Part shown: piece by piece, positions 20,381 to 42,438 of the stretch
Layout of the letters: each line of letters opens with the position of its first letter
Numbering within the stretch: position 1 is the first letter of the stretch
Assembly (NCBI GenBank): GCA_903845345.1
Contig: CAIMXF010000343.1
Coordinates: 1 to 45,773, forward strand
Origin: an uncultured beta proteobacterium
GTDB taxonomy: Bacteria; Pseudomonadota; Gammaproteobacteria; Burkholderiales; Burkholderiaceae_C
DNA: 45,773 nucleotides
Reading direction: 5' to 3'
Made by a program: the position numbers and the translations under genes
Notes under the pieces: model-generated
Databases searched by the model: none
The model's input: only the letters and a program-made list of their open reading frames with translations
Told to the model about the DNA's origin: nothing

Positions 20381-21352
20381 ATGACCAGCCACTCGCCCGT
20401 CACCGCCGCTTCGCCGTCGCCGACATCCGTCCGGGGTGCCGGCGCGGGCTGGTACCGGCGCGAGGAGGCGATCATGGGCACGTCCGTCGAGGTCGAACTG
20501 CATGCGGCGAGCCGCGCGGACGCCGAAGCGGCGATCGCGGCGGTGATGTCGGAGATGCACCGCATCGACGCGACGATGAGCCCGCACAAGGCCACGTCCG
20601 AGCTGTCCATCATCAACGCGCACGCGGCCGACGGGCCGGTCACCGTCAGCGAAGGCCTGTTCGGCCTGCTGTCGCGCGCGCTGGCGTTCTCGAAGCTGTC
20701 GGGCGGCGCGTTCGACATCACCTTCGCCAGCGCCGGCAACCTCTACGACTACCGCGCCGGCGTCGCGCCCGACGCGTCCGCCCTGGGCGACGTGCTGTCG
20801 CTGATCGACTGGCGCCACGTGCAGCTGGACCCGAACGCCCGCAGCGTGCGCTTCGCGCGCCGCGGCGTGCGCATCGACCTCGGCGGCTTCGCCAAGGGCC
20901 ATGCCGTCGACAACGCCGTCGCCATCCTGCGCCGGCTGGGCATCGCCCACGCGATGGTGGCCGCCGGCGGCGACAGCCACGTGATGGGCGCGCGCGGCGA
21001 CCGGCCGTGGACGGTGGCCATCCGCGACCCGCGCCGCGAAGGCGCCGTGGTGGCGGTGCTGCCGCTGGAAGACGTGTCGATCTCGACCTCGGGCGACTAC
21101 GAGCGCTTCTTCGAGCGCGACGGCGTCCGTTGCCACCACCTGCTCGACCCGCGCACCGGCCGCTCGCCCGCCGGCGTGCGCAGCGTGACCATCATCGCCG
21201 ACGACGGCCTGACCACGGAGGCGTTCTCGAAGACCGTCTTCGTGCTGGGCGTCGAAGAAGGACTGCGCTTCGTCGAGGCCCACTCGGGCATCGACGCGGT
21301 GATCGTGGATGCGCAGGGCGCACTGCACTACTCCGCCGGCCTGCTCGGTTAG
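20381..21352 (+). CDS. apbE: FAD:protein FMN transferase
   Basis: IMGTSVEVELHA, KLSGGAFDIT, RVRIDLGGFAKGHAVD-type motif, GGDSHVMG, STSGDYERFFERDG..HHLLDPRTGRSP are ApbE signatures. Confidence 0.95.
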   Translation: MTSHSPVTAASPSPTSVRGAGAGWYRREEAIMGTSVEVELHAASRADAEAAIAAVMSEMHRIDATMSPHKATSELSIINAHAADGPVTVSEGLFGLLSRALAFSKLSGGAFDITFASAGNLYDYRAGVAPDASALGDVLSLIDWRHVQLDPNARSVRFARRGVRIDLGGFAKGHAVDNAVAILRRLGIAHAMVAAGGDSHVMGARGDRPWTVAIRDPRREGAVVAVLPLEDVSISTSGDYERFFERDGVRCHHLLDPRTGRSPAGVRSVTIIADDGLTTEAFSKTVFVLGVEEGLRFVEAHSGIDAVIVDAQGALHYSAGLLG

Positions 21353-21391
21353 CAGGCGCGGACGACGAATACCCCAAGGAAAGAGGCCCTC

Positions 21392-24300
21392 ATGAAGCTG
21401 CCGATCATGTTCTCGACGCGCTCCCTGCTCGGATGCGCCGGCGCACTCGCCGCCGCCGGCGTCCTGTCGCTCGCCGCCTGCGGAGGCGGCTCGAAGACCG
21501 AGTCGAACACCGTCACCGTGCAGGGCGACGTGCCCATCGCGTATGCCAAGCGCGTCAACACGATCGCGCTGAACCCGACCAACTCCGGGCCGTCCGCCGA
21601 CGGCGGCGACCTGATGATCCGCGAGAAGTCCTCGCCGAGCGCGCCCGAGCACAACATGACGGCGCAGTTCACGATGGGCAAGGGCGACGTCCAGACGCCC
21701 GAGGTGTCGTGGGACGGCAAGAAGATCCTGTTCTCGATGCGCTGCAACGCCGCCAACGCGGTGACGATCGGCGGCGTGCCGGCCTGCACCGGCCGCTGGA
21801 ACATCTGGGAATACGACATGACCACCGGCGGCCTGACCGGCGGCACGTTCCGGCGCATCACGTCGTCCGCCGGCGACGACGACATCCACCCGGTCTACCT
21901 GCCCGCGGGGCAGGGCATCGTGTTCACGTCGAACCGCCAGACCGAGTCCATGCCGAACCAGGCGCTGGGCCACAGCTACTACGCGCTGGACGAATACGAG
22001 CGCGAACGCGTGTCCAACCTGCACACGATGGCCCTGGACGGCAGCAACATCACGCAGATCTCGTTCAACCAGAGCCACGACCGCAACCCCGTCATCCGGC
22101 CGAACGGCCAGATCATGTTCTCGCGCTGGGACCACGTCGGCGGCCGCAACCACTTCAAGGTGTTCACGGTCAACCCGGACGGCACCGACATGTTCGTGCT
22201 GTACGGCTCGCACAGCGACGGCAACAGCTTCCTGCACCCGCGCGACATGGATCCGAACGGCAAGTACGCGGGCTTCCTGACGGCCGACGTGATGCCGCTG
22301 CAGCGCACGCAGGAAGGCGGCGCGCTGATGATGGTCGACGCGGCGCACTACTCCGAGCAGAACACGCCGGCGACGCCGGCCGTGCCCGCCACGGGCGGCG
22401 AGGTGCAGGCCACGACCACGCAGATCACGCTCGACGAAGGCCTGTCGATTTACGGCCGCATCACCTCGCCGTACCCGCTGTGGGACGGCACCGATCGCGT
22501 GCTGATGTCGTACCGGCCGTGCGAGGTGACCAACAACGGCGTCGTCGTGCCGTGCTCCACGCTCAGCGCCGACGAGATCGCCCTGCTGTCCGACATGGAC
22601 CGGTCGGTGGCCGACGTCGCGGCCGATCCGATCAAGAACAACGTGCCGCCGCCGTACGCGGTCTACATGTTCGACCCGGCCAACCAGTCGATGCTGCCCA
22701 TCGCCACGCCGCCCGCCGGCTTCATGTACGTCGACCCGGTCGCCATCCAGGCGCGCACCGAGCCGGCCACCAGCTCGCCCGCGGCGCTCGACTCGACCCT
22801 CGCGTCGCAGCACATGGGCACGCTCGACGTGCGCAGCGTCTACGACACCGACGGCCTGGGCCGCATGGGCGAAGGCATGCTGACCGCCTCCGACGCGAAT
22901 GCCGGCTGCACCGCGCCGCTGATCCCGCAGACGAAGCCGATCGACGTCAACGACACGCGTGCCTCGGTCGCCGACATCAACCTCATCAAGGATCCGGCCA
23001 ACGCGGCCTACAACTGCGCGCCGGCGCGCTTCATCCGCGCGGTGCGCGCGGTGGCCCCGCCCACCAACATGATGAAGATGCGCAGTTCGCTGGGCGAGAC
23101 CGACTTCGAGGCCCAGCAGGTGCTCGGCTACGCGCCGATCGAACCCGATGGCTCGTTCAAGCTGAACGTGCCGGCCGACACGCCGATCGCGCTGGCCGTG
23201 ATCGACGCGCAAGGCCGCGCGCTGCAGACGCACACCAACTGGATCCAGGTGCGCCCCGGCGAACGCCGCACCTGCGACGGCTGCCACAGCCCGCGCCGCG
23301 GCGCGCCGATCAACTCGGGCGCGATCGCCAACACCGTGCCCGCGGGCATCCTGGCCTCGATGGCCGCCGCGCACCAGTCCGGCGAGACGATGGCCGACAC
23401 GCACGTGCGGCTCGACCCGACGGCCGCGATGCTCAAGCCCGACATGGTGTCCACCGACATCTGGGCCGACACGACCAAGGCCGGCGTCACCGCCCGCCCG
23501 GCCGTCGCGCTGCGCTACACCGGCAACCCGAACCCCGCCGACGACCTCGTCACGCCGGCACCGGTCAACGGCGTCATCAACTACCCGACGCACATCCAGC
23601 CACTGTGGACGCGCGATCGCGGCGCCAACACCTGCACCTCGTGCCACAACATCTCCGACCACACCGACCTGAGCGCCACCATCGGCGGCGACGGGCGCGT
23701 CGTGTCGTACGACCGGCTGATGATCGGCGACCCGCAGCTCGACTCGTCCGGCCGCCCGATCATCTTCTTCGATGACGGCGTGCCGATGGTGCAGCGCCTG
23801 GACGCGCTGGTGAACACCGCCGCCAGCGAAGGAGAGGCCACGGGCCTGGCGCGCAAGAGCCGGCTGGTCGAGATCCTGTCGGGCCAGAACCTGATGTCCG
23901 ACGACGCCGCGAAGGCCGCGCATCCGAACCCGCCCTCGACCGCGCCGGATCACTCCAAGATGCTCAATCGCGCCGAGATGCGCCTGCTGGCCGAGTGGAT
24001 CGACACCGGCGGCAAGTACTACAACGACCCGTTCGACCCGACCAGCGGCACCCGCATCGTGCCGACGCTCGACGAGGACAGCTTCATCGCCTCGGTCTAC
24101 CCGATCGTCGAGAGCACCTGCGCGACCTGCCACATGGCCCATGGATCCACCAACACGCCCACCGGCGCGACCTCGTTCACCAACAACCGCTACGTGCTCA
24201 CCGGCGATCCCGATGGCGACTGGGGCGTGACGATGACGATGGTGTCCGACACCTGCCATCCGCCGGTGGACTACCTGCTGGCCAAGCCGTCGACCATCCC

Positions 24301-24406
24301 GCACCCGGACGGCGCGACCAGCCAGACCACTGCAGTACTGCCCGCGAACAGCGCGAACTATGCGACCATCGCCAACTGGATCGCAGCGGGCTGCCTGACT
24401 CCATGA
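21392..24406 (+). CDS. HzsA-like / PD40-propeller multiheme c-type cytochrome lipoprotein
   Basis: Lipobox LSLAACGGG; WD40/PD40-like repeats (DGKKILFSMR, QGIVFTSNR, NGQIMFSRWD); three CxxCH motifs (CDGCH, CTSCH, CATCH) in the C-terminal half. Confidence 0.85.
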   Translation: MKLPIMFSTRSLLGCAGALAAAGVLSLAACGGGSKTESNTVTVQGDVPIAYAKRVNTIALNPTNSGPSADGGDLMIREKSSPSAPEHNMTAQFTMGKGDVQTPEVSWDGKKILFSMRCNAANAVTIGGVPACTGRWNIWEYDMTTGGLTGGTFRRITSSAGDDDIHPVYLPAGQGIVFTSNRQTESMPNQALGHSYYALDEYERERVSNLHTMALDGSNITQISFNQSHDRNPVIRPNGQIMFSRWDHVGGRNHFKVFTVNPDGTDMFVLYGSHSDGNSFLHPRDMDPNGKYAGFLTADVMPLQRTQEGGALMMVDAAHYSEQNTPATPAVPATGGEVQATTTQITLDEGLSIYGRITSPYPLWDGTDRVLMSYRPCEVTNNGVVVPCSTLSADEIALLSDMDRSVADVAADPIKNNVPPPYAVYMFDPANQSMLPIATPPAGFMYVDPVAIQARTEPATSSPAALDSTLASQHMGTLDVRSVYDTDGLGRMGEGMLTASDANAGCTAPLIPQTKPIDVNDTRASVADINLIKDPANAAYNCAPARFIRAVRAVAPPTNMMKMRSSLGETDFEAQQVLGYAPIEPDGSFKLNVPADTPIALAVIDAQGRALQTHTNWIQVRPGERRTCDGCHSPRRGAPINSGAIANTVPAGILASMAAAHQSGETMADTHVRLDPTAAMLKPDMVSTDIWADTTKAGVTARPAVALRYTGNPNPADDLVTPAPVNGVINYPTHIQPLWTRDRGANTCTSCHNISDHTDLSATIGGDGRVVSYDRLMIGDPQLDSSGRPIIFFDDGVPMVQRLDALVNTAASEGEATGLARKSRLVEILSGQNLMSDDAAKAAHPNPPSTAPDHSKMLNRAEMRLLAEWIDTGGKYYNDPFDPTSGTRIVPTLDEDSFIASVYPIVESTCATCHMAHGSTNTPTGATSFTNNRYVLTGDPDGDWGVTMTMVSDTCHPPVDYLLAKPSTIPHPDGATSQTTAVLPANSANYATIANWIAAGCLTP

Positions 24407-25062
24407 CGATGAAGCTCTCGAAGATGACTCTTTCTCTCGGCGTCCGCGCCGGCGCCATGGCGAACGCGACGCTCGCGGCCGCCCTGCTCGCCGGTTGCGG
24501 CGGCGGCGGCGACCCGCTGACCAACCCGGGCAACGTGACGAACCCGACGACCACCGGCGGCGCCTCGCTCGCGTTTCCCTATTTCGAGAAGTGCATCTTC
24601 CCGATCTTCCTGAAGCAGTTGCCCATCACGCAGAATGGCGTCACTTCGACGAACACCTGCGCGGGCTCGGGCTGCCATGACAGCAACACCGGCACCGGCG
24701 GCGCGTTGCGCGTGATCGTCGCGGCCTCCGCGGTGGCCGACTCCGACCTGACGGCCGCGGCGACCGACTCCGCCACGGCCACCGCGATTCGCGCCACGGA
24801 CATGTACAAGAACTTCTATTCGGCGCAGGGGGTCACCGTGTTCGGCAGCCCGCTGCAGAGCCGGCTGTTCGACAAGCCCCTTGTCCTCAACGTGCTGCAT
24901 GGCGGCGGCCGCATCTTCGCGAGCGAGGACGATCCGAACGCGAAGCTGATCAACTACTGGATCAGCCATCCCGTGCCCAACGGCCAGGACGAATTCAGCA
25001 GCTCCAGCTACAGCATGTTCACTCCTGCGGATCCGGCGACGGGTACGTGCAACACGCAATGA
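24403..25062 (+). CDS. Small exported lipoprotein, cytochrome c-like with CX4CH motif
   Basis: Lipobox LLAGCGGGG; YFEKCIFPIFLKQL...TNTCAGSGCHDS resembles the PIF..C..CH region of small planctomycete-type cytochromes. Start overlaps the previous stop (ATGA). Confidence 0.7.
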   Translation: MTMKLSKMTLSLGVRAGAMANATLAAALLAGCGGGGDPLTNPGNVTNPTTTGGASLAFPYFEKCIFPIFLKQLPITQNGVTSTNTCAGSGCHDSNTGTGGALRVIVAASAVADSDLTAAATDSATATAIRATDMYKNFYSAQGVTVFGSPLQSRLFDKPLVLNVLHGGGRIFASEDDPNAKLINYWISHPVPNGQDEFSSSSYSMFTPADPATGTCNTQ

Positions 25063-26075
25063 ACGGCGTCCGCGCCGTGTCGTCGCCCTCCATGCCGCCC
25101 CGGGTGATCGCGGGCTTGCTGGCGTGCATGCTCGCGCTCGCCTGCGTGGGCGTGCGCGCGGCCGACGCGCCGACCCCGGCGCCCGTCGCCGCGGCTGCAT
25201 CGGCGCCCGCTCCGGTCGCCGCCGCGTCGGCGCCCGAGGCCGCGGCTTCCGCGCCTGCCGAGGCGGCGTCCGCGGTCGAGGCCAGGCCGTTGATCGCCAC
25301 GGTGCCGGTGCCCGGTTCGACGACGACCGTCGACATCCCCGCGCCGCTCGCGACCGTCTCGGCGCCGACGGTGCCGGTGGCCGACTCGGTGCCCGGCGGC
25401 GACAAGGTGGAGCGCGTGCAGGTCACCGATCCGTTCATCGAGCTGCACACGTTCCCGGGGCGCGGCTATCCGATCTTCTATGTCGCCGGCCGCGGCGAAT
25501 GGGTGTCCATCGAGCTGCGCCACACCGACTGGTACAAGGTGCGCACGGCCACCGGCAAGGTGGGCTGGGTCACGCGCACGCAGTTGCAGACCACGCTGGC
25601 CGAGAACGGCCTGCAGACCGACTTCGGCGACGTCGCCTTCAACGACTACCTGGCGCGCCGCTGGGAGCTCGGCGCGGGCTACGGCCGCTTCCACCAGGAG
25701 CCGATGATCAAGTTCTGGGTGTCGTTCCGACTCTCGGACACGCTCAGCCTCGAATCGACGCTGGGCCAGGTGCAGGGCGTGTTCTCCGGCACCTCGCTGT
25801 GGCACGTCAACCTGCAGGCCGAGCCCTGGTCCGACCAGCGCTTCTCGCCGTTCGCGGGCATCGGCATCGGGCAGTTCAAGAACATCCCGAACCAGAGCCT
25901 GGTCAACTTCCAGACCACCAACGCGCGCCTGGCGGACGCCATCGTCGGCGCGCGCTACCACCTCACCGATCGCTTCATGATCCGGGCCGACTACGCGATC
26001 TACACCGCGTTCGTGTCCGAACAGCGCTCGCTCGAGTACCGCGCGGCCACCGCCGGACTCTCCTTCTTCTTCTGA
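25059..26075 (+). CDS. SH3-domain plus outer-membrane beta-barrel protein
   Basis: Signal peptide, Ala/Ser/Pro linker, SH3b-like VTDPFIELHTFPGRGYPIFYVAGRGEWVSIELRHTDWYKVRTATGKVGWVTR, then alternating beta strands ending in LSFFF. ATGA overlap with the previous gene. Confidence 0.8.
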   Translation: MNGVRAVSSPSMPPRVIAGLLACMLALACVGVRAADAPTPAPVAAAASAPAPVAAASAPEAAASAPAEAASAVEARPLIATVPVPGSTTTVDIPAPLATVSAPTVPVADSVPGGDKVERVQVTDPFIELHTFPGRGYPIFYVAGRGEWVSIELRHTDWYKVRTATGKVGWVTRTQLQTTLAENGLQTDFGDVAFNDYLARRWELGAGYGRFHQEPMIKFWVSFRLSDTLSLESTLGQVQGVFSGTSLWHVNLQAEPWSDQRFSPFAGIGIGQFKNIPNQSLVNFQTTNARLADAIVGARYHLTDRFMIRADYAIYTAFVSEQRSLEYRAATAGLSFFF

Positions 26076-26085
26076 TGCGCCGCCC

Positions 26086-26793
26086 ATGACCGCCAAGAGC
26101 CGCTCCAAAACCGCCGCACCTCTCGCGAAGCTCGCCATCGCCGCGCGCATGGCCGCCGCCACGCTCTCCACCGCGTGCCTGCTCGCGCTGCTCGCGCACG
26201 GCAGCGCGCACGCGGCCGACGCGCCCGCCGCGGACACGCCCGACCAGGTGGTCGTGCCCGAGGTCGACCGCCGCGACGTGCACAAGCCGAAGTACCCGTC
26301 CAACGACTTCGAGATCGGCCTGTTCGGCGGCACCTACTCGTCGCAGAACTTCGGCACCGCGTTCGCCTGGGGCGGCCGGCTGGGCTACGACATCACCGAA
26401 GACTTCTTCGTCGAGGCCACCTACGGCAAGTCCAAGGTGAGCGACAAGGAGTTCCGGCAGATCCTGCCGGGCGGCATCTTCACGGCCGAACAGCAAAAGC
26501 TGAAGTACTACGACCTGTCGCTGGGCTGGAACTTCCTGCCGGGCGAGATCTTCATCGGCAAGAACTGGGCGAAGGCCTCGACGATGTACGCGATCGGCGG
26601 CATCGGCAGCACGTCCTTCGATTCGCAACGCATGCAGACCTGGAACTTCGGCCTGGGCGCCAAGCTGTTCCTGGCCGACTGGGTCGCGCTGCGTGCCGAC
26701 GTCCGCGACCACATCTACACGCTCGACTTGCTCGGCAAGCGCGGCTCCACGCAGAACCCCGAAGTCACGCTCGGATTCTCTTTCTTCTACTGA
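26086..26793 (+). CDS. Outer-membrane beta-barrel protein
   Basis: Signal peptide; FEIGLFGGTYSSQNFGTAFAWGGRLGYDITEDFFVEATYG...TLGFSFFY with terminal aromatic residue. Confidence 0.8.
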   Translation: MTAKSRSKTAAPLAKLAIAARMAAATLSTACLLALLAHGSAHAADAPAADTPDQVVVPEVDRRDVHKPKYPSNDFEIGLFGGTYSSQNFGTAFAWGGRLGYDITEDFFVEATYGKSKVSDKEFRQILPGGIFTAEQQKLKYYDLSLGWNFLPGEIFIGKNWAKASTMYAIGGIGSTSFDSQRMQTWNFGLGAKLFLADWVALRADVRDHIYTLDLLGKRGSTQNPEVTLGFSFFY

Positions 26794-26890
26794 CATTGCC
26801 GAACCCGCCCCGGCTTGATCGCTCGGTGCCGTCGTCGATATCCCTCACGACGCTTCCGTCTCCACCGTCCGTTCCAGCCAGGTGAACCCC

Positions 26891-27400
26891 ATGCGCATGA
26901 TCCGCTCCGTCTTTTCCGTCGTCGTGGCCGCCGTCCTTGCCACCGCCTGCCTCGCGGCGTCGGCCGCCTCGCCCGCGGCCAATGCCGTCGCGCCCGACTT
27001 CACCCTCCGCGGCGCCGACGGCCGCAACGTGCGCCTGGACGAACTGCGCGGGCAGGTCGTGCTGGTGAACTTCTGGGCCACCTGGTGCGGCCCGTGCCGC
27101 GAAGAGATGCCGCGCCTGGACGTGCTGTACCAGAGGTACCACAAGTCGGGTTTCGTGCTGCTGGGCGTCAACGTCGACGACGACCCGCGCACCGCGCTCG
27201 CCACGGCCGCCAAGCTGGGCGTGAGCTTCCCGGTGCTGCTCGACACCGACAAGAAGGTCAGCAAGCTGTACGACCTCAACACCATGCCGTCGACCCTGGT
27301 GATCGATCGCGACGGCAAGGTGCGCTACCTGACGCGCGGCTACCGCGCCGGCACGGAGCAGGACTACGAGCAGCAGATTCGCGGATTGCTGAAGGAATGA
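26891..27400 (+). CDS. TlpA-like periplasmic thioredoxin-fold protein
   Basis: Signal peptide and VNFWATWCGPCREEMPRLDVLY; cis-Pro region NTMPSTLVIDRDGKVRY. Confidence 0.93.
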   Translation: MRMIRSVFSVVVAAVLATACLAASAASPAANAVAPDFTLRGADGRNVRLDELRGQVVLVNFWATWCGPCREEMPRLDVLYQRYHKSGFVLLGVNVDDDPRTALATAAKLGVSFPVLLDTDKKVSKLYDLNTMPSTLVIDRDGKVRYLTRGYRAGTEQDYEQQIRGLLKE

Positions 27401-27657
27401 CGATGGCACCCTTGCGATCAGTTTCGCGACTCCTCGCGCTCGTCGCTGCCGCCCTCGTGCTCGCGGGCGCGAGCGGCTGCGCGCTCAAGCCCATCGAGCC
27501 CTGGGTCAAGCCCTACGAGCGCGAACGCCTGGCCGATCCGGTGATGAAGACCTCGCTCAACGAGCTGCCGGGTCGCCAGCAGGACCACATCTACACGGTG
27601 CGCGAAGGCTCGCGCGGGGCGACGGGCGTGCAGGGAGGCGGCTGTGGCTGCAATTAG
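27397..27657 (+). CDS. DUF4266 lipoprotein
   Basis: Lipobox AGASGCALKP; VKPYERERLADPVM...GVQGGGCGCN C-terminus, characteristic of DUF4266. ATGA overlap with the thioredoxin gene. Confidence 0.88.
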   Translation: MTMAPLRSVSRLLALVAAALVLAGASGCALKPIEPWVKPYERERLADPVMKTSLNELPGRQQDHIYTVREGSRGATGVQGGGCGCN

Positions 27658-28753
27658 GAACGCCGCCAAGGTCGCGGGCCTCGTGGGCGGCGCGATCGCC
27701 GCGAGCTCGGTGCAGGCGGTCGACCTGCCCGAGGACCGCGCCGAGACGATGTACCACCTGTACGACGGCGGCGGCGTGATCGCGCAGGGGCCGGCGGTGC
27801 TGATCCGCAAGAGCATGCTCGATCGCGTCGCGTTGTCGGGCAGCTACTACGTCGACGCGGTGAGCAACGCGTCGATCGACGTGGTCACCACCGCCAGCAA
27901 GTACAAGGAGACGCGCGACCAGGCCAACCTCGGACTCGACTACGTCGTGCGCGACTCGCTGATCCACGTGTCCGGGTCGAAGAGCACGGAGCCCGACTAC
28001 ATCGCCAACACGCTCAGCATCGACCTGACGCAGGACGTCTTCGGCGGCATGACCACCGTCGTTCTCGGCTACAGCCACGCCGACGACAAGGTGGGCCAGC
28101 ACGGCACGCCCGGCTGGATCGGCTCGGCGCACCACTGGCAGTACCGCCTGGGCGTCACGCAGATCCTCACGCCGCGCTGGACGGCCAGCGCCAACCTCGA
28201 GTCGGTCGACGACGACGGCTACCTCGGCAGCCCGTACCGTCTCGCCCGCGTGTTCGGCACCTTCGTCCACGAGAACGATCCGACCACGCGCGAGAGCAAG
28301 GCGCTCAAGCTGTCGACCACCGGCGACATCACGCCCGAGGGCGCCGAGCACCGCCGCTCGTTCCGCGCCGAGTACCGCTACTACTGGGACACCTGGGGCG
28401 TGCGCGGCCACACGCTGGAGCTGGGCTACAACCGCGACATCGCGCCGGGCTGGCTGTTCGAGAGCTTCATGCGCTACTACCGCCAGAACCACGCGCTGTT
28501 CTACAGCGACAACGCGCCCGACCAGACGCTGTACGTGAGCCGCAACCGCGAGCTGAGCACCATGCACGACTTCGGCCCCGGCGCCACGCTGTCGTACACG
28601 CTGCGCAGCGTGCCGGGCAAGTACGACGTCAAGCTGAGCGCGTCGTACCAGTTCATCGATTTCCACTACGCCGACTACACCGACGTGCGCACCGGCAAGC
28701 CGTACTCGTACAAGGCGAGCGTGGTCAACACCGTGCTGTCGGCCACGTTCTAA
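27644..28753 (+). CDS. DUF3570 outer-membrane beta-barrel protein
   Basis: GTG start overlapping DUF4266 by 14 bp; YHLYDGGGVIAQGPAVLIRKSMLDRVALSGSYYVDAVSNASIDVVTTASKYKE is DUF3570-like. C-terminal Phe. Confidence 0.9.
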   Translation: MAAIRNAAKVAGLVGGAIAASSVQAVDLPEDRAETMYHLYDGGGVIAQGPAVLIRKSMLDRVALSGSYYVDAVSNASIDVVTTASKYKETRDQANLGLDYVVRDSLIHVSGSKSTEPDYIANTLSIDLTQDVFGGMTTVVLGYSHADDKVGQHGTPGWIGSAHHWQYRLGVTQILTPRWTASANLESVDDDGYLGSPYRLARVFGTFVHENDPTTRESKALKLSTTGDITPEGAEHRRSFRAEYRYYWDTWGVRGHTLELGYNRDIAPGWLFESFMRYYRQNHALFYSDNAPDQTLYVSRNRELSTMHDFGPGATLSYTLRSVPGKYDVKLSASYQFIDFHYADYTDVRTGKPYSYKASVVNTVLSATF

Positions 28754-28771
28754 AGACAAGAGAGAGCCCGC

Positions 28772-29530
28772 ATGCTGAACCTCACTCGCGCGGCGTTGAT
28801 CGCCCTCGGACTCTGCGCCGCCACGGCGTTCCCCGCCGTCTTCGCGGCCGACGCCCCCGCCGCCGCGGCGTCCGCGCCGCTGCCCGCGGCGGTGGAGGCC
28901 GCGATGCCGGCCGTCACGTCGGCCTCGGCGGCCGTCACGTCGGCGTCGGCGCCCGTCACGGCGGCCTCCGCGCCGACGTTGTCGGCCTCGGCGCCGGACG
29001 CCGCCGCCAGCGGCGCCGCCCCCGCGCCCGAGAGCGCCGCGAGCGCAGCGGCCGCCGCCGCGGCCGCCAGCGAGCCCGCGCCCACCGGCAGCCTCGACGA
29101 CCGCGTGCAGCAGACCAAGGCCGACGTGATCCGCCTGAACCGCGACCTGCTGGTGCTGGAAGAGGAACTGCTGTTCCCCGCCAACACGCAGGTGGCCGTG
29201 TTCGTGTCGATGGACGTCGGCCTGCTGTTCGACCTCGACTCGGTGCAGATCAAGCTCGACGACAAGGTGGTCACCACCTACCTCTACACGCCGCTGGAAG
29301 TGCAGGCGCTGCACCGCGGCGGCGTGCAGCGCGTCTACCTCGGCGACCTGAAGGCCGGCAGCCACGAGATCGTCGCCTTCTTCACCGGCAAGGGTCCGCA
29401 CGACCGCGACTACAAGCGCGCGACGACGATCAAGTTCGACAAGAGCACCGAGCCCAAGTACATCGAGCTGCAGATCCGGGACGTGCAGCAGAAGCTGCAG
29501 CCGGAATTCGACGTCAAAGTCTGGCAGTGA
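28772..29530 (+). CDS. Periplasmic protein of unknown function with Ala/Ser-rich repeat region
   Basis: Signal peptide, 7-aa repeats, coiled region (DDRVQQTKADVIRLNRDLLVLEEELLFP), then a beta-rich PEGA/Ig-like domain. Confidence 0.75.
   Translation: MLNLTRAALIALGLCAATAFPAVFAADAPAAAASAPLPAAVEAAMPAVTSASAAVTSASAPVTAASAPTLSASAPDAAASGAAPAPESAASAAAAAAAASEPAPTGSLDDRVQQTKADVIRLNRDLLVLEEELLFPANTQVAVFVSMDVGLLFDLDSVQIKLDDKVVTTYLYTPLEVQALHRGGVQRVYLGDLKAGSHEIVAFFTGKGPHDRDYKRATTIKFDKSTEPKYIELQIRDVQQKLQPEFDVKVWQ
28910..28993 (+). repeat. Imperfect 21-bp tandem repeat, 4 copies, in-frame
   Basis: gccgtcacgtcggcctcggcg / gccgtcacgtcggcgtcggcg / cccgtcacggcggcctccgcg / ccgacgttgtcggcctcggcg, encoding AVTSASA/AVTSASA/PVTAASA/PTLSASA. 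Confidence 0.8.
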
Positions 29531-31461
29531 CGACGATGCGCCAGCGTTCGCGCTTCTCTCCCGGGCTGGCCGCCGCGCTCGCCGTCTTCATGGCGGGCGT
29601 GCTGGCGCTGGCCGGCGCGCGCGCCGCCGATGATCCTGACAAGGTGCCGGCCGATCCGCCCAGGCATCCGGTGCTGGATCCGCACTACGGCGACGTGCTG
29701 TTCGAGTTCTACCAGGGCCGCTACTTCCCCGCGATCACCAAGCTGGAGGTGTCGCAGCACTTCGACCGCATGCAGCATCACGCCGACGAGGCCGAGATCC
29801 TGCGCGGCGGGCTGCTGCTGTCCTATGGCCTGCACAAGCAGGCGGCCGAGGTGTTCGAGGCGCTGCTGGCGCGCGGCGCGCCGCCGTCCGTGCGCGACCG
29901 CGCCTGGTACTTCCTCGCCAAGATCCGCTACCAGCGCGGGCTGATGCCCGAGGCCTCGCAGGCGCTGGCGCGCATCGAGCATCGCCTGCCCGATCCGCTG
30001 GAGGACGACCGCCGACTGCTGCAGGCCAACGTGTTGATGGCGCTCGGCGACAACGCGGGCGCCAGCAAGATCCTCACGCCGATCGCCGGACCGCGCGGCG
30101 AGGACCTGTACGCGCGCTACAACCTGGGCGTCGCGCTGATCCGCGGTGGCGACGTCGGGCACGGCACGACGATCCTCGACGACCTCGGCCGCCAATCGAT
30201 GCCCGACGAGGAAGGCCGCGCGCTGCGCGACAAGGCCAACGTGGCGCTCGGCTTCGCCGCGCTCAAGGCCAACAAGCCGCAGGACGCGCGCACCTACCTG
30301 CAGCGCGTGCGGCTCGAAGGCATCGACGCCGACGCCGCGCTGCTGGGCTTCGGCTGGGCCGCCGACGCGATGAACCAGCCCAAGCTCGCGCTGGTGCCCT
30401 GGGTCGAACTCGCGGGCCGCGACAAGACCGACGCCTCGGTGCTCGAAGCGCAGCTGGCCGTGCCTTACGCGTACGCCGAGCTGCATGCCGACGCGCAGGC
30501 GCTGCAGCGCTACGAGAACGCGATCGCCAACTTCGAGACCGAGGACGCCAACATCGACGCGACCATCGCCGCCATCCGCGCGGGCAAGCTCGTCGAAGGC
30601 CTGATGGGTCGCAATCCCGACCAGGACATGGGCTGGTTCCAGACCTTCCGCGACCTGCCGCTGATGCCGCACGCGCGCCTGCTCACGCCCGTCATCGCCG
30701 GCAACGAGTTCCAGGAAGCGTTCAAGAACTACCGCGACCTGCAGTTCCTGTCGCACAACCTCGCCGACTGGCACGACAACCTCGGCGTGTTCGGCGACAT
30801 GCTGGCCACGCGCCGCCAGGCCTTCGCCGAGCGGCTGCCCAAGATCCGCGCGATGGGCCAGGCGAGCGGCCAGAACATCGCGCAGCTGCAGCAACGCAGC
30901 GACGACAACGCCGCCGCGCTGAAGCAGGCCGAGGACACGCAGGACGGCGCCGCCTTCGCCGACGCCAACGAGCGCGCGTTGCAGGACCGCCTGCAGCGCG
31001 TCACCGACACGCTGGCCAAGCTGCCGCCCGACACCGACCCCAGCCTGGCCGAGGCGCACGACCGCCTGCGCCGCGTGGCGGGCGCGCTCGCGTGGCAGCT
31101 GGCGCACGAATATCCGGCGCGCGACTGGACGGCCAGGAAGGGCCAGAAGCAGACCGAGGACGCGCTCGTCGACGCCCGCGCGCGCGACGAGCACCTGGCG
31201 CAGGCCCAGCGCGACGAGCCCGCGCGCTTCGAGGACTTCGCGCGCCGCATCGCCGAGCTCGATGCCCGGCTGGGCATCCTCGCGCCGCGCGTCGTCGCGC
31301 TGTCGACCGAGCAGCAGGCCGCGTTGAACGAGATCGCCGTCACCGAACTGAAGGCGCAGAAGGAACGCCTGGCCGCCTACACCGCGCAGGCGCGCTACGC
31401 CGTCGCGCAGCTGTACGACCGCGCCACCGAGCCGAAGGAGGGCGACCATGCGAAGCCCTGA
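29527..31461 (+). CDS. Exported TPR protein
   Basis: GTG start overlapping the previous stop; signal peptide; TPR-like repeats (LYARYNLGVALIRGGDVGHG..., NVALGFAALKANKPQDARTYLQRV). Confidence 0.78.
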   Translation: MTTMRQRSRFSPGLAAALAVFMAGVLALAGARAADDPDKVPADPPRHPVLDPHYGDVLFEFYQGRYFPAITKLEVSQHFDRMQHHADEAEILRGGLLLSYGLHKQAAEVFEALLARGAPPSVRDRAWYFLAKIRYQRGLMPEASQALARIEHRLPDPLEDDRRLLQANVLMALGDNAGASKILTPIAGPRGEDLYARYNLGVALIRGGDVGHGTTILDDLGRQSMPDEEGRALRDKANVALGFAALKANKPQDARTYLQRVRLEGIDADAALLGFGWAADAMNQPKLALVPWVELAGRDKTDASVLEAQLAVPYAYAELHADAQALQRYENAIANFETEDANIDATIAAIRAGKLVEGLMGRNPDQDMGWFQTFRDLPLMPHARLLTPVIAGNEFQEAFKNYRDLQFLSHNLADWHDNLGVFGDMLATRRQAFAERLPKIRAMGQASGQNIAQLQQRSDDNAAALKQAEDTQDGAAFADANERALQDRLQRVTDTLAKLPPDTDPSLAEAHDRLRRVAGALAWQLAHEYPARDWTARKGQKQTEDALVDARARDEHLAQAQRDEPARFEDFARRIAELDARLGILAPRVVALSTEQQAALNEIAVTELKAQKERLAAYTAQARYAVAQLYDRATEPKEGDHAKP

Positions 31462-34369
31462 CCGCCGGATGACGGCCCCGCGACCGCGCACGCTGGCCGT
31501 GCTGCTGCTCACCAGCTCGCTCGGCGCTTGCTCGATGTTGCATGGCTGGTTCGGCGGCAAGCCGGGCGCCACGCCCGACAACGCGCCGACGATCGCCACG
31601 CTGAACAAGCGCGCGGTCGTCATCGCGCCCGATCCCGGCATCCCGGCCGACGAGGACAAGGCGATCGCCGCCTACCGCAACTTCCTCGCGGTGACGCCCG
31701 ACGCCAAGCAGCGCGCCGAGGCCTTGCGCCGCCTGGGCGACCTGTCGATGGCCAGCGCCGACAACGCCAATGCCGCCACCCCGACGCCCAGCGGCACGCC
31801 CGACTACACCGTCGCGATCAAGCAGTACCGCGACTACCTCAAGACGTATCCGAACGATCCGGACAACGACCGCGTGCTGTACCAGCTGGCGCGTGCGCAG
31901 GAGCAGGGCGGCCAGCTCGAGGACGGGCTGAAGACGCTGGACCTGCTCGTCGCGACCTATCCGAAGACGCGCTACCGCGACGAGGCCGAGTTCCGCCGCG
32001 GCGAGCTGCTGTTCACGCTGCGCCAGTATCCGAAGGCCGAGCAGGCCTACACGCTGGTCCTCGACGGCGAGAAGGACAATCCGTACCGCGAGCGCGCGCT
32101 GTACATGCAGGGCTGGTCGAAGTTCAAGCAGGGCAACCTGGAGGAAGCGCTGGGTTCGTTCTTCGGCGTGCTCGATGGCAAGATCGTCGGCATCAAGGAC
32201 GACGACCTCGACAAGTCCGATGCGCTCACGCGCGCCGACAAGGAGCTGGTCGACGACACGCTGCGCGTGATCGGCATCTCGCTGGCCAACCTCAAGGGCG
32301 CGGAGTCGATTCCCGTCTACATCACCAGCGACGACCGCCGCTCGTACGAGTTCCGCATCTACGAGCAGCTCGGTCAGCTCTACCTGACACAGGACCGCCC
32401 GAAGGACGCCGCCGACACCTACGCCGACTTCGCGCGCCTGAACCCGCTCGACGCGCAGGCGCCGGCCATGCAGGCGCAGGTGATCGCGATCGACCAGGCG
32501 GCCGGCTTCGACCAGCTGGCGCTCGCCGCGAAGAAGGACTACGTCGCGCAGTACGGCCTCGACGGCGAATTCCGCAAGGCTAATCCCGAGGGCTGGGAAC
32601 ACGCGCAGCCGCTGGTCAAGACCGCGCTGGCCGAACTGGCGCAGCGCTATCACTCGCAGGCGCAGAAGACCAAGTCCCAGGCCGACTACGTCGAGGCCGC
32701 GAAGTGGTACCGCGCGTGGCTGGCCGAATTCGGCAGCGATCCGGAGGCGCCGGAGAACAACTTCCTGCTGGCCGAGGTGCTCTACGACAGCGGCCAGTAC
32801 GCCGCCGCGGCCCTCGAGTACGAGAAGACGGCCTACGAGTACCCGGCGCATCCGCACAGCGCCGACGCCGGCTACGCCGCGCTGCTGGCGCACGCCGCCG
32901 AACAGAAGGGCGTGACCGGCGACGCGCTGGTGCCGATGCAGCGCACCGGCGTCGACAGCGAGCTGCGTTTCGCGGCCGCGTTCCCGGACGACGCGCGCAC
33001 GCCCGCGGTGCTCACCAACGCCGCCGACACGCTGTTCAAGCTGCACGACAACGATCGCGCCGCGGGCGTCGCGCAGCAGGTGCTCGCGCTGCAGCCGCCG
33101 GCCACGCCGGCGCAGCGGCGCGTCGCGTGGACGCTCGTGGCGCACACGTCGTTCGAGGCCGGCCGGTTCGACCAGGCCGAGAAGGCCTACGTCGAGGTGC
33201 TGGCGCTCGCGCCGGCCAACGATCCGGCGCGCGGCGAGCTCACCGAGCGACTCGCGGCGTCGATCTACAAGCAGGGCGAGCAGGCGCGCACGGCCGGCGA
33301 CGACAAGGCCGCGGCGGCGAACTTCGCGCGCGTGGCCGTGGCCGCGCCGACGTCGGCCGTCCGCGTGAACGCCGAGTACGATGCCGCCGCCTCGCTGATC
33401 GCGCTGAAGGACTGGGCCGGCGCGGCCCGCACGCTGGAGGACTTCCGCCAGCGCTATCCGAACCATCCGCTGCAGCCCGAGGTCACCGCGCGCCTGGCGC
33501 TGGCCTACAGCGAGCAGCGGCAGTGGGCGCCGGCCGCCGCGCAGTACGAGCGGATCGCGCTGACGCCGACCACCACGCCCGAGGGCGCGACCCGCGCGCG
33601 CGCGGCGCTGTGGCAGGCGGCCACGTTGTACGAGAAGGCGGCGGCGAGCGATCCCGACAGCGTCCAGGCCGGCAAGCCGCGTCCCGCCGACGCCGCGGCC
33701 AACCGCGCGCTGGCCGCCAGGGACTACGACCGCTACCTGAAGCAGTATCCGAGCCCGCTGGAGCCGGCCGTCGAGGCGCACTATCGTCTCGCGCAACTGG
33801 CGCACATCGACGGCAACGCCGCCGCCGAGAGCGCGCAGATGCACGCGATCTTCGTCGCCGACCAGAACGGCGGCGCCGCGCGCACCGACCGCACCCGCAC
33901 GCTGGGCGCGATGGCCGCGCTGGCCGCCGCGCAGCCGGTGTTCGAGGCCTACCAGAAGGTGCAGCTGGTCGAGCCGCTGGCCAAGAACCTGAACATCAAG
34001 AAGGCGAAGATGCAGGACACGCTGAAGGCGTACGCGGTGGCCACCGACTACGGCGTCGCCGAGGTCACCACGGCCGCCACGTTCCACGTCGCGACGCTGT
34101 ACCAGGACTTCGCCAAGGCGCTCACCACGTCGCAACGGCCGAAGAAGCTGTCCAAGCTGGAGCTCGAGCAGTACAACGAGCTGCTCGAGGAACAGGCCGA
34201 CCCGTACGTCGAGAAGGCGATCGAGCTGCACGGCGTCAACGCGCACCGCACCACGCAGGGACTCTACGACGAGTGGGTCAAGAAGAGCTTCGATGCGCTC
34301 AAGACGTTGCAGCCAGCGCGCTACAACAAGACCGAACACAGCGAGGCGACCGTCGATGCGATCCGCTGA
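31448..34369 (+). CDS. Large TPR-repeat lipoprotein (973 aa; possibly GltE-type)
   Basis: Lipobox SSLGACSML; many TPR/Sel1-like helices (AIAAYRNFLAVTPDAKQRAEALRRLGDLSM, DRVLYQLARAQEQGG...). Overlaps the previous gene by 14 bp. Confidence 0.8.
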   Translation: MRSPDRRMTAPRPRTLAVLLLTSSLGACSMLHGWFGGKPGATPDNAPTIATLNKRAVVIAPDPGIPADEDKAIAAYRNFLAVTPDAKQRAEALRRLGDLSMASADNANAATPTPSGTPDYTVAIKQYRDYLKTYPNDPDNDRVLYQLARAQEQGGQLEDGLKTLDLLVATYPKTRYRDEAEFRRGELLFTLRQYPKAEQAYTLVLDGEKDNPYRERALYMQGWSKFKQGNLEEALGSFFGVLDGKIVGIKDDDLDKSDALTRADKELVDDTLRVIGISLANLKGAESIPVYITSDDRRSYEFRIYEQLGQLYLTQDRPKDAADTYADFARLNPLDAQAPAMQAQVIAIDQAAGFDQLALAAKKDYVAQYGLDGEFRKANPEGWEHAQPLVKTALAELAQRYHSQAQKTKSQADYVEAAKWYRAWLAEFGSDPEAPENNFLLAEVLYDSGQYAAAALEYEKTAYEYPAHPHSADAGYAALLAHAAEQKGVTGDALVPMQRTGVDSELRFAAAFPDDARTPAVLTNAADTLFKLHDNDRAAGVAQQVLALQPPATPAQRRVAWTLVAHTSFEAGRFDQAEKAYVEVLALAPANDPARGELTERLAASIYKQGEQARTAGDDKAAAANFARVAVAAPTSAVRVNAEYDAAASLIALKDWAGAARTLEDFRQRYPNHPLQPEVTARLALAYSEQRQWAPAAAQYERIALTPTTTPEGATRARAALWQAATLYEKAAASDPDSVQAGKPRPADAAANRALAARDYDRYLKQYPSPLEPAVEAHYRLAQLAHIDGNAAAESAQMHAIFVADQNGGAARTDRTRTLGAMAALAAAQPVFEAYQKVQLVEPLAKNLNIKKAKMQDTLKAYAVATDYGVAEVTTAATFHVATLYQDFAKALTTSQRPKKLSKLELEQYNELLEEQADPYVEKAIELHGVNAHRTTQGLYDEWVKKSFDALKTLQPARYNKTEHSEATVDAIR

Positions 34370-35108
34370 GCACGTCCGCCTTCCGTTGCTGACGCTGGCG
34401 GCCGCGATGCTGCTGGCGGGTTGCGGCTCGATCGGGTGGCGCATGCCGGGGTCGTCGCCGGCGCCGGCAGCGGCGGCCGCTCCCGCGCCTGCGGCGAGCG
34501 TGGCGGCAGCCGTCCCCAAAGCCGCGGCCAGCGCGGCCGCCACGCCGAAGCCGGCGTCCACCGGCCCGATCGCGCCGGCCACGCAGCGCGCCTACGACGA
34601 CGCGCTGGCGCTGATGCGCGCCGGCCACGCGGCCGAGGCCGAACGCATGTTGCGCGCGTTGACGCAGTCCGACCCCGACCTCGCCGGACCGCATGCCAAC
34701 CTCGGCCTGATCGCGCGCGAGCAAGGCCACCTGCCCGAGGCCGTCGCCGAGCTCGAGAAGGCCACCACGCTCGCGCCTGGCCTGGCCGTCGCGTGGAACC
34801 AGCTCGGACTCGCGTACCGCGCCAGCGGCGAGTTCACGAAGGCGCGCGACGCCTACCAGCATGCGCTGGCGATCGACCCCAACTACGCCACCGCGGTGCT
34901 CAACCTCGGCGTGCTCGACGACCTGTACCTGGGCGACGGCGCGCACGCGCTGGAGTTCTACACGCGCTACCTCGCGCTGACGCCGGGCGGCGACCCGGTC
35001 GTCACGAAGTGGGTTGCCGACGTCAGGAATCGCCAGCCGAAGACGGCGGCACCCGCCGCGTCCGCGCCGGCTGCGGCTCCGGCCAATGCGCCCAAGGAGA
35101 AGTCATGA
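34356..35108 (+). CDS. TPR lipoprotein
   Basis: Lipobox AMLLAGCGS; canonical TPRs AGPHANLGLIAREQGHLPEAVAELEKATTLAPG, AVAWNQLGLAYRASGEFTKARDAYQHALAIDPNYATAVLNLGVL. Confidence 0.88.
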   Translation: MRSAEHVRLPLLTLAAAMLLAGCGSIGWRMPGSSPAPAAAAAPAPAASVAAAVPKAAASAAATPKPASTGPIAPATQRAYDDALALMRAGHAAEAERMLRALTQSDPDLAGPHANLGLIAREQGHLPEAVAELEKATTLAPGLAVAWNQLGLAYRASGEFTKARDAYQHALAIDPNYATAVLNLGVLDDLYLGDGAHALEFYTRYLALTPGGDPVVTKWVADVRNRQPKTAAPAASAPAAAPANAPKEKS

Positions 35109-35419
35109 TCCATCGCCTCGCTGCGCTGCTTACGATCGGTTGCCTTGTCGCCCCTGCCTTTGGCCAGGATCACGCCGAAATCGACCCCACGAAGATCATC
35201 GGCAACCGAGAATTGCCGAAGGTGCTCTATATCGTTCCCTGGAAGAAGCCGTTGCCGGGCGACCTGGCCGGCCGGCCGCCGGTGAGCGTGGTCGACGAGG
35301 CACTGGCGCCCCTCGATCGCGACGTGTTCCGGCGCCAGGTGCGCTACGACAAGCTCGAACAGGAGCACGCCGCCGCGGCGGCCCCTGCCGCGACGCCGGC
35401 CACGCCGGCGGCGCACTGA
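35105..35419 (+). CDS. Small exported protein of unknown function (104 aa)
   Basis: ATGA overlap with the previous gene; signal peptide MIHRLAALLTIGCLVAPAFGQ; KVLYIVPWKKPLPGDLAGRPPVSVVDEALAPLDRDVFRRQVRYDKL. Confidence 0.7.
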   Translation: MIHRLAALLTIGCLVAPAFGQDHAEIDPTKIIGNRELPKVLYIVPWKKPLPGDLAGRPPVSVVDEALAPLDRDVFRRQVRYDKLEQEHAAAAAPAATPATPAAH

Positions 35420-35473
35420 ATCCGCGTCCATCCGTTTCACGTTCCAAGAATCTGTTCCCCCGGAGATTTCCAG

Positions 35474-36124
35474 ATGAATTCCTTTGAGTCGATCATCAAG
35501 TTCTTCCAGGACTGTGGTCTGTTCATCTTCCCGAGCCTGGCCATCATGGCCACGGGCCTGGCGATCGCCATCGAGCGCTTCGTATTCCTGCAGAAGGCGC
35601 GCGTGGCCAACCGCCGCGACTGGGCGAAGGTCCTGCCGCTGCTGCAGGGCGGCCAGTGGAAGGAAGTGCTGGGGCTGACGGCGTCGTCGGATTCGGCCAT
35701 CGGCAAGATCGTGCACAACGGCCTGTCGCGCCTGCAGTCCTCGCGCCGCCGCGACGACATCGACGCCGCCATGGAGGAAGGCATGATGGAGATCGTGCCG
35801 CGCCTCGAGAAGCGCACGCACTACATCGCGGTGTTCGCCAACGTCATCACGCTGGTCGGCCTGCTGGGCACCATCACCGGCCTGATCCACGCGTTCACCG
35901 CGGTGTCGCAGGTCAATCCGGCGGAGAAGGCGGCGCTGCTGTCGGCGTCGATCTCCATCGCGATGAACAACACCGCCTTCGCGCTGATGGTCGCGATCCC
36001 GTTCCTGCTGATCCACTCGTTCCTGCAGGCGCGCACCGCCGACATCGTCGACGGCCTCGAGGCCGCCAAGATCAGCTTCCTGAACCTCGTCCAGCGTCTG
36101 GCTCCGGAACACAAGGCGGCTTGA
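35474..36124 (+). CDS. MotA/TolQ/ExbB proton channel family protein (AglR-like)
   Basis: Three TM segments; ITLVGLLGTITGLIHAFTAVS and SISIAMNNTAFALMVAIPFLLIHSFL. Confidence 0.92.
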   Translation: MNSFESIIKFFQDCGLFIFPSLAIMATGLAIAIERFVFLQKARVANRRDWAKVLPLLQGGQWKEVLGLTASSDSAIGKIVHNGLSRLQSSRRRDDIDAAMEEGMMEIVPRLEKRTHYIAVFANVITLVGLLGTITGLIHAFTAVSQVNPAEKAALLSASISIAMNNTAFALMVAIPFLLIHSFLQARTADIVDGLEAAKISFLNLVQRLAPEHKAA

Positions 36125-36166
36125 TCATGCGCCGTTCCACCCACCCGCGACACCGGGGGTGCCGCC

Positions 36167-36661
36167 ATGGCCGTTAGACGCTTGCGCAAGGGTTCGGAGG
36201 CGCTCGAGGTCAGCGCCTTCATCAACCTGATCGTCGTGCTGATCCCGTTCCTGCTGTCGACGGCGGTGTTCTCGAACATGTCGGTGGTCGACCTGACGCT
36301 GCCCGCGAAGTCGGGCAACTGGGACAACCTCAAGGCCAACGACCTGAAGCTCGAGGTCGTGGTGCGCCACGACTCGATCGAGGTCGGCGACAAGATCGGC
36401 GGCCTCCTGTTCCCGGCCATTCCCAACACGCCGACCGGCCCCGATCTCGTCACGCTCAACGCCGACATGTTCGTGGTCAAGAACAAGTTTCCGGACGTCA
36501 CGGCCGCCTCGCTGCTGCCCGAGCCGAACATCCCGTACGACACCGTGATCCACGTGATGGACGCGATGCGTACAGGCAAGTCGGCCAACGGCGGCACCAC
36601 GGTGCTCGACGTCGACCTGTTCCCGGCGATCTCCATCGGCGATGCGCCGGTGCGGCACTGA
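36167..36661 (+). CDS. ExbD/TolR family protein lacking the conserved TM Asp
   Basis: Single N-terminal TM SAFINLIVVLIPFLLSTAVFSNMSVVDLTLPAKSG; position and topology of ExbD/TolR. Confidence 0.82.
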   Translation: MAVRRLRKGSEALEVSAFINLIVVLIPFLLSTAVFSNMSVVDLTLPAKSGNWDNLKANDLKLEVVVRHDSIEVGDKIGGLLFPAIPNTPTGPDLVTLNADMFVVKNKFPDVTAASLLPEPNIPYDTVIHVMDAMRTGKSANGGTTVLDVDLFPAISIGDAPVRH

Positions 36662-36673
36662 AAGGGGCGCGCG

Positions 36674-37156
36674 ATGAAGCAGACCCCACTCGAGAAGCGC
36701 ACCGCGCGCAAGGCCCGGCACGGCAGCGGCCTCGACATGAACCTCGTGTCGCTGATCGACGTCTTCACCATCCTGATCTTCTTCCTGCTGTCGAGCTCGG
36801 GCGTCGAGACGCTGCCCGCGGCCGCGGTGCACCTGCCGGTGTCGAGCGCGAAGAAGGATCCCAAGCAGACGGTCGTGGTCGTGGTCAACGCCAGCGAGAT
36901 CACCGTCGACGGCCGCAAGGTGGCCGACGTCGCGCCGCTGGCCGCCGCGACGGACGACCTGATCCCGGGCCTGAAGGCCGAGCTCGACATCATGTCCGCG
37001 CGGCCCGTCGCGCTGGCCGAGAACGCAGACCAGGCGCACTCCGTCACGATCATGGGCGACAAGGACATTCCCTACCAGTTGCTGCGCAAGGTGATGTACA
37101 CCGCGGCGGTGGCGGACTACACCAACGTGTCGTTCGCCGTGAACCGGGACGAGTGA
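36674..37156 (+). CDS. ExbD/TolR family protein
   Basis: MNLVSLIDVFTILIFFLLSSSG with canonical Asp; C-terminal IMGDKDIPYQLLRKVMYTAAVADYTNVSFAV. Confidence 0.92.
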   Translation: MKQTPLEKRTARKARHGSGLDMNLVSLIDVFTILIFFLLSSSGVETLPAAAVHLPVSSAKKDPKQTVVVVVNASEITVDGRKVADVAPLAAATDDLIPGLKAELDIMSARPVALAENADQAHSVTIMGDKDIPYQLLRKVMYTAAVADYTNVSFAVNRDE

Positions 37157-38253
37157 AGCCCATGGCCGCCATCTCATTCCGAACGTCGACGCTGCCATGG
37201 GCCCTGGCCCACGACGACGAGGAGCGCTTTCGCAAGCTGTTCCTCGCGCTGCTTGGCTTCGTGATCGTATTCGGCATCGCGCTGCGCTTCATCACGCTGC
37301 CCGAGCCTGAACGCGTGGCGGTGACGACGCTGCCACCGATCGCCGCCAAGCTGCTGCTGGACAAGCCCACCCCGCCGCCACCGCCGCCGCCCAAGGCCGT
37401 GGAAAAGATCGAGCCGCCCAAGCCCGATGCCACCGACAAGCGCGAACCCGCGCCGCTGCCCACCAAGCCCGTGCCGCGCGAGCGGCCGGTCGTCGAGGCG
37501 CGCCAGCCGATCCCGGGCAAGCCGCCGGGCGAGGACCGCGACGCCGCGCGCAACAAGGCGGCCGGCGTCGGCCTGCTCGCCGCGTTGAAGGACCAGCCGC
37601 CCGAACTGCACGGCGCGCCGCTGGCGGTGCAGCTGAACCAGGACATCAAGAAGGGTGCGGGCGTGGGCACCGGCGCCGGCGTGGGCGTCGGCGCCGGCAA
37701 GGAGCAGGGCCTGCCCGATCGCAACATGATCACGTCCAACGCGGCGGGCGGCAGCGGCGGCATCAACACCGCCGGCTTCAGCCGCGACTCGGGCGGCGGC
37801 GGCCTCGCCGGCCGTTCGACGACGCTCGTCGCCGGCGTGGCCGGAGGCGGCGGTGGCGGCGGCCCGGGCCTCGGCGGCCAGATCAGCGGCACCGGCGGCC
37901 ACGGCACGGGTGCCGGCAACGGCAAGTCCGGCGGCACCTTGACCAAGGGCGCCGGCGGCAAGGCCTCGCGCTCGCTCGAGGAGGTGCGCCTCGTGCTGGA
38001 GCGCAACAAGGGCGCGCTCTACGCGATCTACAACCGCGCGTTGCGCGAGGATGCGTCGCTGCAAGGCAAGGTCGTCGTCAGTTTCACGATCGAGCCCAGC
38101 GGCAGCATCAGCGAATGCCACATCGTGTCGAGCGAGCTGAAGAATGCCGAGCTCGAACAGAAGCTGCTCGCGCGATTCCGTGGGATGACGTTCACGGCCG
38201 AGGATGTCGGAACGCTGACGACCACGTATCCGATCGACTTCCTGCCGTCCTGA
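37153..38253 (+). CDS. AgmX/PglI C-terminal domain (TonB-like) protein
   Basis: GTG start overlapping the previous stop; one TM, proline-rich PTPPPPPPPKAVEKIEPPKP, Gly-rich linker, and C-terminal VRLVLERNKGALYAIYNRALREDASLQGKVVVSFTIEPSGSISECHIVSSEL. Confidence 0.9.
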   Translation: MKPMAAISFRTSTLPWALAHDDEERFRKLFLALLGFVIVFGIALRFITLPEPERVAVTTLPPIAAKLLLDKPTPPPPPPPKAVEKIEPPKPDATDKREPAPLPTKPVPRERPVVEARQPIPGKPPGEDRDAARNKAAGVGLLAALKDQPPELHGAPLAVQLNQDIKKGAGVGTGAGVGVGAGKEQGLPDRNMITSNAAGGSGGINTAGFSRDSGGGGLAGRSTTLVAGVAGGGGGGGPGLGGQISGTGGHGTGAGNGKSGGTLTKGAGGKASRSLEEVRLVLERNKGALYAIYNRALREDASLQGKVVVSFTIEPSGSISECHIVSSELKNAELEQKLLARFRGMTFTAEDVGTLTTTYPIDFLPS

Positions 38254-42410: not shown

Positions 42411-42438
42411 GGCCCGGATCCTTGGCGGGATCCGGGCC
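42411..42438 (-). terminator. Strong hairpin terminator of a minus-strand transcript
   Basis: GGCCCGGATCC-N6-GGATCCGGGCC inverted repeat; minus-strand 3' side runs into TTTTCG. Confidence 0.75.

Follow-up and report, generated by a model that had tools for sequence, protein, structure and literature searches.

A conserved 17-gene cluster associates a Glt-type envelope motor with a putative outer-membrane redox module

We describe a cluster of 17 genes, all on the plus strand at positions 20381-38253 of a 45,773-nucleotide contig (hereafter the window), in which heme-, thiol-, and flavin-related genes are followed by the genes of a Glt/Agl-type motor, a relative of the motor behind gliding in Myxococcus. 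Sets of about 17 such genes occur in many environmental bacteria. The parts of both halves are recognizable, the gene order and the cofactor motifs are conserved, and the subtypes of the two halves occur almost exclusively together. As the two halves are nearly always found together, they probably form one machine, and we have high confidence that the 17 genes act as one functional unit. In the best reading, this unit would be a Glt/Agl-type trans-envelope machine that carries a redox complex as its outer-membrane module, an interpretation to which we assign an even chance. The window is contig G000:C343 of a fragmented assembly with 631 contigs, whose named relatives are Burkholderiales.

The upstream half begins with apbE (20381-21352; PF02424, E = 3.7e-78), encoding an FAD:protein FMN transferase with an uncertain start (ATG at 20243, 20303, or 20381). 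It is followed by an HzsA-like lipoprotein (21392-24406; PF18582, E = 1.5e-19) with propeller-like repeats, an HZS_alpha middle domain, and three CxxCH heme motifs, which are present in 97-100% of 61 alignment rows. The next lipoprotein (24403-25062; no Pfam match) carries one CX4CH heme-type motif, invariant in 65 rows. The frame at 25047-26075, conserved in other loci and uncertain in its start, encodes an exported protein that, as read from its sequence, appears to combine an SH3-like part with a barrel-like C terminus. This is the gene called "SH3-barrel" in the initial annotation; it is present as a single protein with these two parts. An outer-membrane barrel of the OMP_myx_plus family follows (26086-26793; TIGR04565, 143 bits against a cut-off of 60), and then a TlpA/ResA-like thioredoxin (26891-27400; PF08534; alternative starts GTG 26882 or ATG 26897) with a CxxC motif found in 98-99% of 89 rows. 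A DUF4266 lipoprotein (27397-27657; PF14086, E = 1e-20), whose C-terminal CxC is invariant in 80 rows, and a DUF3570 protein (27644-28753; PF12094) of what we term the H-type, with the motifs SNAS and TTAS, complete this half.

The downstream half opens with the AlaSer protein (28772-29530; no Pfam match), in which an Ala/Ser-rich linker precedes a conserved domain. The domain is modeled as a long helix plus a beta-sandwich (pLDDT 87), and a fold search against the PDB returned generic beta-sandwiches and no informative match. Three TPR proteins come next: tprA, which is exported (29527-31461; weak TPR matches); tprB, a large lipoprotein (31448-34369; TPR families); and tprC, a lipoprotein (34356-35108) with GltE as its best NCBIfam match (E = 7e-15, below the equivalog cut-off). 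The first two have no specific match and were placed as GltC and GltD by position. A small exported protein (35105-35419), conserved in the cluster and without a Pfam match, precedes an ExbB/AglR-like proton channel (35474-36124; PF01618, E = 1.3e-26), two ExbD proteins (36167-36661 and 36674-37156; both PF02472), and an AgmX/GltG-like TonB-type transducer (37153-38253; NF033768, 69.9 bits against a cut-off of 40; weak match to GltG).

All of the named genes are thus present and co-directional, as the initial annotation had stated; its count of 16 becomes 17, which is also the number of genes in its own list. Eight junctions overlap (4-16 bp), and the remaining gaps measure 10-97 bp. The previously noted overlap range of 4-14 bp holds for seven junctions, which overlap by 4 or 14 bp, and the eighth overlap measures 16 bp, provided that GTG 25047 is the start of the SH3 gene. 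Inside 20381-38253, a simple scan, which provides weak evidence, detected neither promoter-like sites nor terminator-like sites on the plus strand. Cytochrome c maturation genes (CcmC/CcmF-type, dsbE, ccmH, and ccmI) lie directly upstream at 14669-20002; the congeneric genomes G002 and G003 likewise have ccmI ahead of the cluster. These genes adjoin the cluster in the window's genus and not in most named loci, and we rejected them as members of the system. The outer flanks are ordinary: upstream are the minus-strand genes for SurA and LptD (1540-5669), and downstream are those for DUF969, DUF979, and a pyroglutamyl peptidase (42160-45286).

The gene order is conserved beyond the window. G002 and G003 carry all 17 genes with order and orientation unchanged, as does G009, from a different genus in the family, at roughly 50-80% identity; in G001, most of the genes are present, again in this order, divided between two contigs. 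Scanning named genomes for the AlaSer domain yielded 547 confirmed matches, and our statements about loci rest on the 80 loci listed. Among the matches listed, most loci are from Burkholderiales, and the cultured hosts that carry cluster-type loci include Rivibacter, Albitalea, Piscinibacter, Rhizobacter, Sapientia, and Caldimonas. Where Burkholderiales loci are long enough, the order is identical, and individual weak genes, most often tprC, sometimes fall below threshold. The arrangement is far beyond chance, given that G002, G003, G009, and most long Burkholderiales loci all share the 17-gene order. Several gammaproteobacterial loci have their two halves in divergent orientation, and some genomes carry the motor genes at another site; apbE stands at the head of the Glt half in some divergent loci, and the cluster apbE is absent from several split loci. 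One genome (G021, L037:7548-16683) has kept the redox half and AlaSer in a cluster that ends in a truncated tprA; the rest of the Glt half was not found at this locus, and no AgmX over the cut-off was found in the genome.

To quantify the linkage, we surveyed 339 genomes of the class with profiles built from coupled loci. Of these genomes, 72 have AlaSer, 78 have DUF4266, and 74 have an AgmX that exceeds its cut-off. The H-type DUF3570 (at least 198 bits) occurs in 50 genomes; all other DUF3570 matches score at most 138 bits, and the 138-bit match is itself the second piece of a split H-type gene. AlaSer is present in 50 of the 50 H-type genomes and AgmX in 49 of the 50. Conversely, all 47 genomes in which AlaSer reaches at least 140 bits, a line drawn after the scores were seen, have an H-type DUF3570, and none of the 32 genomes whose only DUF4266 is of the other type has AlaSer at this level. 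Fisher's test for H-type DUF3570 against AlaSer gives p ~1e-54, a value that, like the co-occurrence counts, ignores shared descent. The H-type genomes span 28 family codes, and some families mix genomes with and without it; in a set of 170 genomes from the phylum, no genome outside the class reached an H-type score. With regard to position, of the 51 H-type DUF3570 genes, 29 have AlaSer on the same strand at a distance of no more than 3.5 kb, 8 have it in divergent orientation at up to 16 kb, 2 are separated from it by 22-29 kb, and 12 sit on a contig without any AlaSer gene. OMP_myx_plus exceeds its cut-off in 49 genomes of the class, 48 of which are H-type. The sole exception without an H-type DUF3570 is G322, where locus L212 has sh3, barrel, and TlpA-like genes beside a divergent ExbD- and AgmX-like pair. 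A search for plasmid carriage of DUF3570 gave no match.

Relatives of each half do occur alone. The 40 low-scoring AlaSer copies are never within 40 kb of an H-type DUF3570, and 31 of them have AgmX within 12 kb; those copies with AgmX are plain Glt clusters, which, in the loci read, are preceded by unrelated genes and contain no redox genes. Likewise, the other DUF4266 regions contain a plain tlpA-DUF4266-DUF3570-apbE cluster without HzsA, SH3-barrel, OMP_myx_plus, or Glt genes. This independence could suggest that the two operons of the window are unrelated and have been kept together by chance or transferred jointly. We consider this very improbable, as the co-occurrence also holds where the halves are divergent or on separate contigs. 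The initial annotation had proposed independent occurrence of the halves in related genomes as the observation that would speak against their coupling. Such independence is true for the other subtypes and was rejected for the H-type/Glt subtype, whose members co-occur almost without exception, an association stronger than the window by itself could have revealed to that annotation. Together with the same gene order in related genera, the co-occurrence in 50 of 50 and 47 of 47 genomes supports the coupling that it proposed: the cluster is real and conserved, and its halves are more than adjacent. Trees of AlaSer and TprB did not clearly separate coupled from uncoupled Glt, so we speak of a "type" and claim no coupled clade.

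The upstream half resembles a cluster of ApbE, DUF3570, DUF4266, and thioredoxin, for which Meheust 2021 (PMC8238504) describes a double flavinylation motif on DUF3570. ApbE, DUF3570, DUF4266 with its CxC, and a thioredoxin-like protein stand side by side in the window as well. The window, however, adds the HzsA-like, CX4CH, SH3-barrel, and OMP_myx_plus genes and the Glt motor, and its DUF3570 subtype lacks the Gly of the two [ST]GA[ST] motifs, reading SNAS and TTAS instead. Most H-type proteins share the pattern D..[ST][NS]AS IDVV T.AS, and the motif Gly is found in only 3 of 85 proteins at motif 1 and 2 of 85 at motif 2. Judged by its sequence, the upstream half is a distinct "H-type" subtype of the Meheust cluster. 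Because the final Ser of the motif is kept, a variant ApbE site on the H-type DUF3570 is plausible, and we lean slightly toward the view that FMN is attached to it. The DUF3570 motif is gone in two clusters that have also lost genes: that of G099 lacks tlpA, duf4266, and apbE, and that of G057 lacks a separate duf4266 and apbE. This tracking of motif loss with duf4266/apbE loss is a correlation in two lineages and no more. The presence of ApbE as such was uninformative about the motif, since all 49 genomes examined have an ApbE somewhere. In G057, the DUF3570 protein (L215:14200-16300) has an N-terminal DUF4266-like stretch, apparently a fusion, and both the CxC and the flavinylation motif are lost. 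Two loci from other Burkholderiales (L040 and L041) have DUF3570 proteins of ~900 amino acids with a large C-terminal extension, and L040 has two divergent copies.

DUF3570 had been listed apart from the barrels of the cluster. The protein is present, and its H-type form is itself a predicted outer-membrane barrel with 16 strands (pLDDT 84), whose PDB matches are outer-membrane barrels. In the model, strands 3 and 4 are joined by a loop of low confidence that contains the motif; by strand counting with both ends periplasmic, this loop would face outward.

The large heme lipoprotein shares propeller-like repeats, the HZS_alpha middle domain with CxxCH, and a C-terminal heme motif with HzsA (PDB entry 5c2v), although only ~70 residues align well and the window protein has three CxxCH motifs. 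Identification as a hydrazine synthase was rejected, as the score of 60.1 bits compares with an NCBIfam equivalog cut-off of 800 and partner subunits are missing; none of the 17 genes gave a family match to HzsB or HzsC.

The downstream half was compared with the Agl/Glt "core complex" (gltC, gltD, gltE, gltG, aglR, aglQ, and aglS), which is found in bacteria described as non-gliding, according to Luciano 2011 (PMC3169522; Group B). Both comprise, in one region, one ExbB-type and two ExbD-type proteins (here PF01618 and two PF02472 matches), TPR proteins, a TonB_C-type transducer, and an extra conserved gene, whereas the redox module and the extra barrels are additions in the window. The window's transducer is of the GltG type, with an AgmX/PglI C-terminal domain over its curated cut-off; the GltG equivalog itself is far under its own. 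The resemblance to Agl/Glt suggested in the initial annotation is thereby borne out by the AgmX/PglI tail and by GltE and GltG, which are among the best NCBIfam matches at sub-threshold scores. A difference lies in the ExbD pair. AglQ and AglS of Myxococcus are described in PMC9389320 with Asp in both subunits; here, the proton-binding position is Asn in the first ExbD (70 of 76 rows) and Asp in the second (76 of 76 rows). The paired Asn/Asp ExbDs (36167-37156) possibly indicate an asymmetric motor. The same pair was seen in five plain Glt loci read (L165-L169).

The Agl/Glt-type core and the OMP_myx_plus barrel might point to an apparatus for gliding or other surface motility with accessory redox proteins. 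The occurrence of the core complex in non-gliding bacteria noted above, the lack of a recognized adhesin in the cluster, and an ExbD without the Asp reported for both AglQ and AglS leave this explanation with very little probability. The motor also shares a proton-driven ExbB/ExbD-type design and a TonB_C-type transducer with TonB-ExbBD and Tol-Pal, from which it differs in having two ExbDs. A TonB-like uptake system, in which surface reduction frees a metal such as iron or a nutrient and the motor drives import through a barrel, would agree with the TonB_C-type domain of AgmX and with the link of some DUF3570 clusters to iron transporters mentioned by Meheust 2021 (PMC8238504). Neither a TonB-dependent receptor nor Pal was detected among the family matches of the cluster, however, and ExbB and both ExbDs score far under the curated tolQ, exbB, exbD, and tolR cut-offs, which makes uptake improbable.

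In the trans-envelope machine that we favor, proton flow through the ExbB/ExbD motor, with its Asp and Asn ExbDs, would drive the AgmX/GltG-like transducer. The transducer and the TPR proteins would act on an outer-membrane assembly composed of the DUF3570, OMP_myx_plus, and SH3-barrel proteins and the HzsA-like triheme and CX4CH lipoproteins, with which TlpA and the CxC lipoprotein DUF4266 would exchange thiol electrons. The variant double motif of DUF3570 may serve as the site at which ApbE attaches FMN. By moving, opening, or placing the assembly, the motor would enable it to exchange electrons with something at the cell surface. The best hint that the redox half forms the outer-membrane part of the machine comes from the location there of OMP_myx_plus, a family named for myxobacteria. 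Whether the motor acts on an outer-membrane redox assembly is, in our estimation, evenly balanced. We propose only tentatively that it works as a mechano-redox machine, whose motor mechanically gates or shifts an outer-membrane heme/flavin/thiol conduit and so places surface electron exchange under the control of the proton motive force.

The motor might alternatively serve assembly rather than turnover. TlpA, DUF4266, and ApbE would then mature the cytochrome and flavin proteins, and the Glt motor would carry the heme lipoproteins to display at the surface, the HzsA-like and CX4CH lipoproteins going through or along the outer membrane. Such a role would be in line with the cargo-moving function of Agl-Glt/Nfs in Myxococcus (PMC3858216) and with the presence of heme lipoproteins and a thioredoxin in one conserved operon. 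The CxC protein DUF4266 and the flavin-type barrel nonetheless point to a chain of carriers beyond maturation alone, and we regard biogenesis and surface display as a doubtful explanation, if one to be taken seriously.

That non-gliding bacteria can carry Glt-type core complexes has been known since 2011 (Luciano 2011, PMC3169522), and we found no function assigned to these complexes in the literature searched. The almost exclusive redox partner of one Glt subtype provides a concrete, testable lead on this function, and the DUF3570 subtype with an altered flavinylation motif offers a direct handle on ApbE specificity. In the open-licence literature searched, we found no paper on the coupling of a Glt core to a flavin cluster, and we provisionally consider the coupling to be new.

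Finally, gammaproteobacterial versions of the cluster (L156:10994-16708; L132, L137, L144, L146-L148, L152, L154, and L164) contain three extra genes that are absent from the window, encoding a CxxCH protein of ~420 amino acids, a LamG-containing diheme lipoprotein, and a protein of ~550 amino acids with a Tat-like signal. Speculatively, the lectin-like LamG domain and the other extra genes might point to a glycan or another surface substrate.
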